Both the position numbers and the translations under genes were made by a program. Of a DNA stretch of 39,378 bases, positions 35,446 to 37,695 are shown one piece after another. Each line of letters opens with the position of its first letter. Within the stretch, counting starts at the first letter, position 1. This DNA comes from Planctomycetia bacterium (GTDB taxonomy: Bacteria > Planctomycetota > Phycisphaerae > Phycisphaerales > SM1A02): positions 1 to 39,378 of the forward strand of contig SYGP01000048.1 of assembly GCA_005799495.1 (NCBI GenBank), given 5' to 3'. Below the pieces are notes generated by a model, which worked only from the letters and a program-made list of their open reading frames with translations, made no database searches and had not been told where the DNA came from.

Positions 35446-36909
35446 TCACTGCGCGGCGCGGCGAGCATCGTGCCGTGCCGCGAGCGACTCCCAATCGGAC
35501 CCGAACGCCCACGCATAGTTCTGCCATCGACCGATCGAGGATGCGTTGATCGGTGCCTGCACCTGCGCATGGCTCAAGGTGAACACGGTGCGGCGGTTCG
35601 CCTCGGGTCGCAGCATGGTCTCCGTCAACTCAAGTCCCATCATCTTCAGGCAGTGGTTCGCTTCGCCCGCTGGATCCTCGACCAACCGCTCATACACGAC
35701 CGTCGCGTATTCAAGACCGTGGAAAGAGAACGCACTCGGCAGCACGCTGTCGACTGCCTCCAAGACGCGCCGAATGGAGTCGAGCGATGCAGTCCAACCA
35801 TCCGAGTACGGATGGAAGTACGACAGCAGGATGCTGATCGCCGTATCGCGCGGGTCGCGCACAACATGCAGACAGCGCGTGCCCGGCAACACGGCGGCGA
35901 GTTCGGGCAGCAACCGCCATGCGCGAAGGTTCTTGTCGACCATCCACCGCGAACCCGCCCGCTGTCTCCGCCGCGCGTCCGCCATGTACTCGCCCTGCAA
36001 GCGGAGCGCATCCTGCAGTGGAACATGATCGATCGAACGCCCTCCATACCCGAGTGACTGCGCTGCCTCACCCACGAAGCGAAGTCCGTCGTACTCGCCG
36101 ATGCCACTGATCTGAGGATGCGCATCGAGCATCTGCTCCAACAAAGTCGTTCCACTGCGCGGAACGGCGACGAACATGGCAAGTCCATCCACCGCTGGAA
36201 CCGCTTGCGCAGATGGCTTCTTCTTCGCCGAACGCGTTCGTTCATCCAGCACAGGCTGCAGGAACGCGTCGAGGTCGAAGGGCAGTCCCGTGAGGGCATG
36301 AGTCCTTTGCGCGAGATCGAAAGCCTCTCGATACCTCCCCAGTCGATCGAGGAGACGAACTGCATCGAAACCAGCGAGGCGCCGCACGGAAGGTGCCACC
36401 TGCGACTGTGCAACCACAGCGAGCTCCGCCGCGGCGCGCGCAGGATCCGAATGCGAAATGCAGCGTGCGGCATGAAGCGCGTGACGCGGATCCGACTTCC
36501 ACGGTCCGGTGCGCGCCACCTCTTCCGCGAGTTCGGCAGAACGCCCAGCGATCCAAAGGCTGTCGACAAGTCCCATCCATGCCTCAGTTGCGTAGGGACC
36601 GAATCGTCGGGTCAGTGGACGCAGGCGAGCGATCGATGCATCGAGGCGGGCAAGTTGCTGGTCCGACAATCCCTGTAGAAAGACCACTCGGTCATCCATC
36701 GGAGCGAGCCGCGCAGCCACTTCGAGGTCCCGGTCCGCGGCATCGATCCTCCCGAGTCTGGAATGTGCAGTCGCCCGAGCTAGCCAGGCCCCCACCTGCT
36801 GCGGCGACTTGGCGCACCAACGATCTGCTACTTCCAGTGCACGCCGCGCATACCCCTGATCAAGCAGCGATTGCACCTCTGCCGCCAGCTTGGAATCCGC
36901 TGCCTGCAT
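35446..36909 (-). CDS. TPR-sulfotransferase fusion
   Basis: A 487-residue protein. Residues 1-215 are helical TPR-like repeats (ALEVADRWCAKSPQQVGAWL, RIDAADRDLEVAARLAP, GRYREAFDLAQR). Residues 243-480 are a PAPS-dependent sulfotransferase domain: 5'-phosphosulfate loop FVAVPRSGTTLLEQML (250-255 core) and 3'-phosphate motif HVVRDPRDTAIS. TPR-sulfotransferase proteins are usual in planctomycetes and proteobacteria; acceptors are mostly unknown (protein tyrosine, glycans). The ATG at 36909 is chosen because TAGCAT on the minus strand ends 7 bases upstream, although the open frame continues to 37101 across the Hc1-like gene. Confidence 0.87.
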   Translation of the reverse strand: MQAADSKLAAEVQSLLDQGYARRALEVADRWCAKSPQQVGAWLARATAHSRLGRIDAADRDLEVAARLAPMDDRVVFLQGLSDQQLARLDASIARLRPLTRRFGPYATEAWMGLVDSLWIAGRSAELAEEVARTGPWKSDPRHALHAARCISHSDPARAAAELAVVAQSQVAPSVRRLAGFDAVRLLDRLGRYREAFDLAQRTHALTGLPFDLDAFLQPVLDERTRSAKKKPSAQAVPAVDGLAMFVAVPRSGTTLLEQMLDAHPQISGIGEYDGLRFVGEAAQSLGYGGRSIDHVPLQDALRLQGEYMADARRRQRAGSRWMVDKNLRAWRLLPELAAVLPGTRCLHVVRDPRDTAISILLSYFHPYSDGWTASLDSIRRVLEAVDSVLPSAFSFHGLEYATVVYERLVEDPAGEANHCLKMMGLELTETMLRPEANRRTVFTLSHAQVQAPINASSIGRWQNYAWAFGSDWESLAARHDARRAAQ

Positions 36910-36916
36910 CTCCGCG

Positions 36917-36922
36917 ATGCTA
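36917..36922 (-). promoter_or_regulatory. -10-like TAGCAT, leaderless-type start
   Basis: On the minus strand TAGCAT lies 7 bases before the ATG at 36909, in the 52-base gap after the Hc1-like gene. Confidence 0.45.
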
Positions 36923-36961
36923 TGGCGCAGCGATGCCGCCCCGAGCCCGGCACGATGACGA

Positions 36962-37150
36962 TCAGGCTGCGGGCGGCTGCTCGCGGCCCGAGAGGATCGC
37001 TTTGCGAACCTCTTGTGCGGCTGCACGCACCGTCTGCATGTGCTTGCGGGCGCGCGTCCCGGCAGCACGGTTGCCGCCATGAGCCTTTTCGATGTCCTCA
37101 CGGGCTGCGTTCACGACCCGCAAGAGTTCCTCATAACTGTTCATGATCAT
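36962..37150 (-). CDS. Histone H1-like, Hc1-type DNA-binding protein
   Basis: A small protein of 62 residues. The core GNRAAGTRARKHMQTVRAAAQEVRKAIL closely follows the pattern of bacterial histone H1-like (Hc1 N-terminal) proteins of Chlamydiae and Bacteroidetes (GNKAAGTRVRK...). It is a helical hairpin with basic residues, preceded by an acidic helix (YEELLRVVNAAREDIEKA). It lacks the Lys/Ala-rich C-terminal tail of chlamydial Hc1. A perfect AAGGAGG lies 10 bases before the ATG at 37150 (16 before a second ATG at 37144), the strongest Shine-Dalgarno in the window, suggesting high expression. Likely nucleoid-associated. Confidence 0.8.
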   Translation of the reverse strand: MIMNSYEELLRVVNAAREDIEKAHGGNRAAGTRARKHMQTVRAAAQEVRKAILSGREQPPAA

Positions 37151-37170
37151 TGGTTCAGATCCTCCTTGGA

Positions 37171-37200
37171 ATGCGGAAATAGTAACGAATTGTTATCTTG
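37171..37200. promoter_or_regulatory. AT-rich divergent control region of the Hc1-like gene and fabZ
   Basis: The short stretch ggaaatagtaacgaattgttatctt is strikingly AT-rich for this genome. It contains TATCTT (37194-37199, plus) and a partial inverted repeat TAAC-GAATT-GTTA (37183-37195). It probably holds overlapping promoters for both directions. Confidence 0.45.
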
Positions 37201-37221
37201 ATGCGAGTCCCGAGGCACGAA

Positions 37222-37695
37222 ATGGCTGCCGAACTACTCATCCCCATCGACAAGATAGACCTCAGCGCGACACTTTGCGACAAGACGGAGGTCGATAAGT
37301 ACCTGCCGCAGACTGGGCATATGCGGATGATCGACCGGGTCATTTGGATCGCCCAGGATGGGACCTCCGCCATCGGCGAGCGCATGATTCGCGACGACGA
37401 GTTCTGGGTGGAAGGGCATATCCCGGGCCGCCCGATCTTTCCTGGGGTACTGATGATTGAGGCTGCTGCGCAGATGTGCAGCCTGCTCCACACGAGGCTC
37501 GGCCGAGCCAACGGATTCCTTGGATTTACCCGCTGCAATGATGTGGTTTTTCGCGGGCAGGTGCTGCCCGGCGACCGCCTGCTGCTGCTCTCACAGGAAA
37601 TCGAGTTCAACCGCCGACGCTTCATCAGCAAGGCGCAGGGCGTGGTGGGCGACAAGCTCGTGTTTGAAGGCACGATCACCGGCATGGTGATCTAG
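37222..37695 (+). CDS. fabZ: 3-hydroxyacyl-[acyl-carrier-protein] dehydratase FabZ
   Basis: Hot-dog dehydratase of type II fatty acid synthesis. From the ATG at 37222 (GAGG 6 bases upstream) it is 157 residues. Catalytic His66 (FWVEGHIPGRPIFPGVL) and Glu80 (LMIEAAAQM) are 14 apart, as in E. coli FabZ (54/68). The opening LPQTGHMRMIDRV replaces the usual LPHRYPFLLIDRV, and the end FEGTITGMV is family-like. Longer starts at 37201 (ATG) and 37198 (TTG) are possible. A related FabZ-like hot-dog protein of other lipid pathways cannot be excluded, since no fab genes adjoin. Confidence 0.86.
   Translation: MAAELLIPIDKIDLSATLCDKTEVDKYLPQTGHMRMIDRVIWIAQDGTSAIGERMIRDDEFWVEGHIPGRPIFPGVLMIEAAAQMCSLLHTRLGRANGFLGFTRCNDVVFRGQVLPGDRLLLLSQEIEFNRRRFISKAQGVVGDKLVFEGTITGMVI

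Follow-up and report, generated by a model that had tools for sequence, protein, structure and literature searches.

By its sequence, the gene at 36,962–37,150 (minus strand, stop codon included) of the 39,378-nucleotide stretch of DNA analysed here, which we call the window, is a real conserved gene and a fresh member of the already known Hc1 family. It encodes a 62-residue protein, an Hc1 core without the tail, which we consider most likely to be a small, well-translated nucleoid-associated protein (probability roughly 0.6) with a likely role in DNA packing; nucleic-acid binding is the preferred activity because the invariant residues are mostly basic. We count towards a nucleoid role the Hc1 family membership, the predicted hairpin, the strength of the Shine-Dalgarno sequence, the class-wide presence as a single copy, the linkage to a fabZ-like gene, and the chlamydial and viral parallels. 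Against it we count the small net charge, unlike that of a histone, the absence of a binding tail, the presence of HU, the loss of the gene in most of one bacterial family (f15) and the generic fold.

An earlier note, made from the DNA letters, had proposed an Hc1-type protein with a GN.AAGTR.RK core, and both points are confirmed. The ATG opens a 62-codon reading frame whose translation contains GNRAAGTRARK, and the Pfam profile PF07432 (Hc1) matches the protein with an E value of 2.1e-16 and 60 bits, against a cut-off of 23.5. The alignment places residues 3–54 of 62 on profile positions 1–53 of 57, so nearly the whole protein is aligned and it falls in the length class of the short form of the family, with the conserved GN..A..R.R.K turn lying between two helices. 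All 90 aligned relatives (alignment A1) also match PF07432 at E ≤ 1 (best 2.3e-24), as does a Bacteroides control genome, and a single Hc1 copy was found in the window's genome (a 2.36-Mb assembly in 50 contigs). To our knowledge, no member of the short form has a solved structure or a tested function. Searches of the PDB sequences for short-form Hc1, using phmmer and the A1 profile, returned nothing significant, and a PHROGs search with the window protein gave no significant family.

AlphaFold2 predicts a two-helix hairpin (helices 2–24 and 28–57, pLDDT 93, pTM 0.73). The first helix is acidic; the second is basic and begins at the invariant GN..A..R.R turn. Gly26, Ala30, Arg33, Arg35 and Arg49 are invariant in the 90 aligned sequences, and Asn27, Lys22 and Lys36 are among the positions conserved at 90% or more. 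Across 150 class members, the median charge is −3 for helix 1, +6 for the 33 residues from the GN turn and −1 for the tail, giving a median net charge of +2 (range −2 to +4). None of the Hc1 members inspected has a lysine-rich tail; one out-of-class protein (L083) carries a Pro/Gly-rich extension with a few lysines. Structural comparison of the model yields only generic helical hairpins: Foldseek against the PDB gave no match at E ≤ 0.001, and the best VIA-align score (Z 8.4) was to designed bundles and lies below the level that the tool regards as meaningful for helical bundles. Two predicted viral 'Histone H1' proteins have the hairpin shape in common with the window protein (TM 0.83 and 0.73, E 0.43 and 1.4), the former at 28% identity. 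A kinship with the eukaryotic CDK2AP proteins, suggested by a weak Pfam match (E 0.068) and by the highest-ranking PDB entries in Foldseek (E 0.4 and 0.97), was rejected. When the 90 relatives are compared with Pfam, CDK2AP does not appear among their first 25 families, and the A1 profile finds no CDK2AP protein in the PDB; the likeness is one of helical hairpins.

According to a passage in PMC3469542, the conserved sequence of Chlamydia Hc1 is N-terminal, and its divergent C-terminal region holds the DNA-binding domain. The window protein has the same N-terminal core as chlamydial Hc1/HctA, but lacks the C-terminal nucleic-acid-binding region: it ends at residue 62, without the basic tail expected of HctA. 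It scores 13.9 bits against the NCBIfam equivalog for chlamydial HctA (NF051889), whose cut-off is 100, in a weak match of residues 12–37 that covers 26 of 121 model positions. The earlier suggestion of a nucleoid protein with high translation stands as regards its strong, conserved ribosome-binding site, whereas the term 'histone-like' is weaker than it looks, because what is conserved here corresponds to the N-terminal, potentially dimerising part of the chlamydial protein and the C-terminal binding half is absent.

The same comparison brings in the most serious alternative, which we regard as possible though clearly less probable than nucleic-acid binding: the Hc1 core may be a protein–protein module for dimerisation or adaptation that does not bind nucleic acid, to which the Chlamydiae added a tail, and which does another job here, for instance in the envelope or in metabolism. 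The missing tail and its charge of −5 to +1 across the 150 class members would agree with such a module, as would the low net charge, the old linkage to a fatty-acid-type enzyme and the N-terminal part of chlamydial Hc1 being a potential dimerisation site, as worded in the title of a reference cited in PMC3469542. Most of the invariant residues, however, are basic, and they gather around the turn and in the second helix, where they would suit phosphate binding; phage members of the family are annotated as histone H1, though by homology only. One such protein, from cyanophage S-SRM01 ('histone H1', 183,637–183,759), aligns with residues 1–41 at 48.8% identity (E 2e-3, 66% of the query); in the phage collection searched, S-SRM01, with two records, is the sole phage to match at E ≤ 0.01 when the window protein is the query. 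A passage in PMC12619734 reports PF07432 in four moraphages. These are viral genes, in contrast to the gene in the window. That the protein associates with RNA or ribosomes, and does not shape DNA, seems improbable: the small bipolar hairpin would suit such a role, and chlamydial Hc1 is reported, again in the title of a reference cited in PMC3469542, to repress translation in vitro and to bind RNA as well as DNA, but no RNA-binding fold stood out in the Foldseek and VIA-align comparisons.

If nucleic-acid binding is accepted as the preferred reading, the following mode of action can be proposed. Two or more hairpins would pair, as the N-terminal region of the chlamydial protein has been proposed to do, and conserved Arg and Lys side chains in the turn and in helix 2 would make contact with the backbone phosphates of DNA (or RNA). 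The paired hairpins may then bridge or coat the nucleic acid, instead of condensing it through a basic tail.

Strong translation of hc1 would fit its ribosome-binding site, AAGGAGG at 37,161–37,167 (minus strand), 10 nt before the ATG. The claim that this is the best Shine-Dalgarno sequence of the window held up: computed against a typed anti-Shine-Dalgarno sequence, its duplex energy of −11.7 kcal/mol is the lowest obtained, followed by −10.7, with 24 true starts among the 28 positions tested. AAGGAGG occurs four times in the window, both strands counted, and AGGAGG is found in all 17 same-genus divergent loci. Throughout the class, the median duplex energy is stronger for hc1 (−9.25, n=150) than for fabZ (−4.9, n=133).

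We then considered the distribution of the gene in a sample of planctomycete genomes. PF07432 is present in 38 of 41 close relatives, the window's genome included, in 162 of the 198 class genomes, with one match per genome among the matches listed, and in 69 of 392 genomes of the phylum, 40 of them within the class and 29 outside it (from a non-class total of at most 351). Many of the named relatives (best 80 of 406) are Phycisphaerales or Phycisphaerae assemblies, which makes Phycisphaerae the probable identity of the class. Two genomes have two matches each, G014 in the close-relative set and G465 in the phylum set; the former, an assembly of the window's genus (85% complete, 4% contamination), holds two different hc1 loci (L025 and L104) and perhaps represents mixed strains. 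A passage in PMC1403754 (2006) confined Hc1 to Chlamydiales, which the planctomycete matches contradict. Nevertheless, the link between relatives in the PVC group that had been read into the gene is not supported as stated: because presence is patchy elsewhere in the phylum, a shared Hc1 is weak evidence of common PVC inheritance. At the 29 out-of-class loci (L058, L063, L064, L066, L068, L070, L071, L073, L074 and L079–L098), Hc1 has variant turns such as GNKAACARVRK and GNKAATSRVRK, or GKKVAATRARK in family f97, and an EVE-domain gene (PF01878) is a member of a cluster with representatives at 18 loci.

The gene next to hc1 in the window, at 37,222–37,695 on the plus strand, encodes a FabZ-like hotdog dehydratase (PF07977, FabA-like hotdog, E 5.8e-23). 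The catalytic dyad of FabZ consists of a histidine and a glutamate, and both are kept here: His65 and Glu79 are invariant in all 24 sequences of alignment A2. The neighbour resembles FabZ 3-hydroxyacyl-ACP dehydratase in its hotdog domain and these two residues, but does not reach either NCBIfam cut-off for the FabZ equivalog (79.5 vs 113 bits and 75.9 vs 155 bits). Three further FabA-like domains are encoded in the window's genome, on contigs C11 and C49 (L075, L077 and L078), two of them close together on C49; the best of the three sits in a 475-residue frame that we infer to be an LpxC–FabZ fusion.

Conservation of hc1 and its fabZ neighbour in relatives, many of them named as Phycisphaerae, was borne out, with hc1 in the 162 class genomes given above and with a linkage that we scored, using profiles built from hc1 loci, as a fabZ-like gene at most 0.7 kb away. 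In 178 hc1 loci from 177 of the 186 matching class genomes (close-relative and class sets), such a gene was found at 159 (150/163 and 9/15); the 163 loci span 25 families, and 22 of these show it. Five of the 19 unlinked loci run into a contig end (L025, L117, L152, L154 and L177); the 14 with room belong to f7 (2), f10 (3), genus g69 of f19 (2) and genus g86 of f9 (7). At the 29 out-of-class hc1 loci, no fabZ-like gene was seen within the 1.5–2 kb examined (a few were shorter). A third conserved gene was not evident: adenylosuccinate-lyase-like, isochorismatase and flavodoxin genes occur in subsets of loci only, and the largest ORF cluster, a merged component with 1,486 ORFs from all 192 loci, is uninformative and could hide one. 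Searches of the open-licence literature with the terms used turned up no publication that deals with Phycisphaerae Hc1 or with hc1–fabZ linkage, and no earlier description of the linkage as a class-wide feature.

The neighbour is FabA/FabZ-like and divergent from hc1 in the window, as had been claimed, but this layout is derived and local: at 138 of the 159 linked loci fabZ lies downstream on the same strand, and only 21 are divergent. The best 80 of 406 named loci, which overlap the same genomes, comprise 62 same-strand, 14 divergent and four without fabZ (two near a contig end). All 21 divergent cases of known family fall in f1, the family of the window, where ten same-strand loci also occur, and the median gap of same-strand pairs is 118 nt (n=129). 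The commoner order, hc1 followed by fabZ on one strand, is probably ancestral. One locus (L014) reads lyase, isochorismatase, hc1, fabZ and a phosphomannose-isomerase-like gene on one strand, and a locus of the window's genus (L022) keeps that order and differs only in the orientation of hc1, so the divergence in the window is most simply explained by the in-place inversion of one small gene. In the window, isochorismatase and hc1 are separated by a sulfotransferase gene (PF13469; longest ORF 35,446–37,101, minus strand). Because tblastn found no full-length copy of it at the other same-genus loci compared, it has the look of a local insertion. Its listed start is probably wrong because the longest ORF overlaps hc1. 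We picture the fabZ-like gene as an old neighbour, probably first co-transcribed with hc1, until hc1 was flipped in place in the window's genus, where transcription of the two now seems to begin at promoters placed back to back.

The 71-nt region between the two genes (37,151–37,221, up to the fabZ ATG at 37,222) is unusually AT-rich, as the earlier note had said: a 72-nt stretch covering it has 46% G+C against 63% for the window, and 0.5% of 72-nt windows are as low. It contains the dyad TAAC-GAATT-GTTA (37,183–37,195), the only TAAC-N5-GTTA in the window, for which a role as a shared operator had been suggested. Most relatives have TAGC-N5-GCTA, so the site across the 17 genus loci is TARC-N5-GYTA; both halves match in ten (counted by eye) and the dyad is imperfect in seven. 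Fourteen of the 17 (also counted by eye) retain the right half, G[CT]TATC[TG]T, among them L023, L024, L103 and L106, whose left half has diverged. The right half overlaps a candidate extended −10 element of fabZ, TGTTATCTT (37,191–37,199, plus strand), whose pattern TG.TATCTT occurs once in the window, and a more distant divergent locus (L180) has GCTATCTT near the fabZ start. A putative −10 of fabZ requires fewer assumptions because the right half is kept even where the left has drifted, so the dyad is better read as a promoter element than as an operator, and the shared operator is not supported as stated. The paired change to TAAC/GTTA in the window relative to its genus relatives and the ten perfect dyads remain in favour of the dyad. 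A consensus promoter scan of 36,900–37,300 found no sites and no −35/−10 pair, and supports neither reading.

Linkage between hc1 and fabZ is old and strong, yet dispensable, as some genomes keep fabZ without hc1 and two others (G080 and G211) keep both genes apart. The first case is best seen in family f15. Among the 20 listed of the 36 class genomes without PF07432, 17 belong to f15, and 17 of the 18 listed f15 genomes have no Hc1 match, G140 being the exception that has hc1. All 17 retain the fabZ-like orthologue (E ≤ 1.3e-61; L280–L292, L294 and L296–L298), as do G029 and G087, in which no credible Hc1 was found near fabZ. The pattern points to natural loss of an otherwise widespread gene in f15, with the fabZ-like gene kept, and hence hc1 is not needed for the dehydratase. 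A diverged hc1 upstream of fabZ in the 17 genomes was sought at full sensitivity and gave no credible hit; the search of 27 fabZ loci produced weak rows only in L287 (f15, E 2.9) and L295 (f9, E 3.9), and inspection by eye revealed no consistent small replacement gene upstream of the f15 fabZ. Three genomes (G007, G018 and G064) have neither Hc1 nor a strong orthologue of the neighbour, perhaps through assembly gaps. HU-family genes are present in all 36 class genomes checked, and the window's genome has two such genes, so hc1 does not encode the sole nucleoid protein. No clear compensation by HU was seen in f15, the mean copy number being 2.3 in the 17 genomes without hc1 and 2.1 in 18 genomes of other families.

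That hc1 and fabZ form one functional unit, for example in a joint control of lipid supply and nucleoid state, the dyad being a shared operator, would suit their linkage in 159 of 178 loci and 22 of 25 families amid variable other neighbours, and an adjacency that outlasted the inversion in the window's genus, but is very unlikely given the 19 genomes (17 of f15, G029 and G087) that keep fabZ without hc1, the 14 loci with room that keep hc1 without adjacent fabZ, its absence near all 29 out-of-class hc1 genes and the seven imperfect dyads. We give equally slight credence to a broader scenario, in which the Hc1 fold would have begun as a tail-less, class-wide hairpin protein that does not condense DNA itself but serves as an adaptor to the neighbouring FabZ-like membrane-lipid enzyme and so couples envelope growth to the state of the nucleoid; the chlamydial histone would be a later derivative with a tail.

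Hc1, which is known experimentally from one group of intracellular parasites, gains a free-living, tail-less version across a class of planctomycetes. The loss in most of f15 offers a natural control, and the fabZ-like gene is a conserved neighbour. This opens a testable question, namely what role the conserved half of Hc1 plays when the DNA-binding half is absent.
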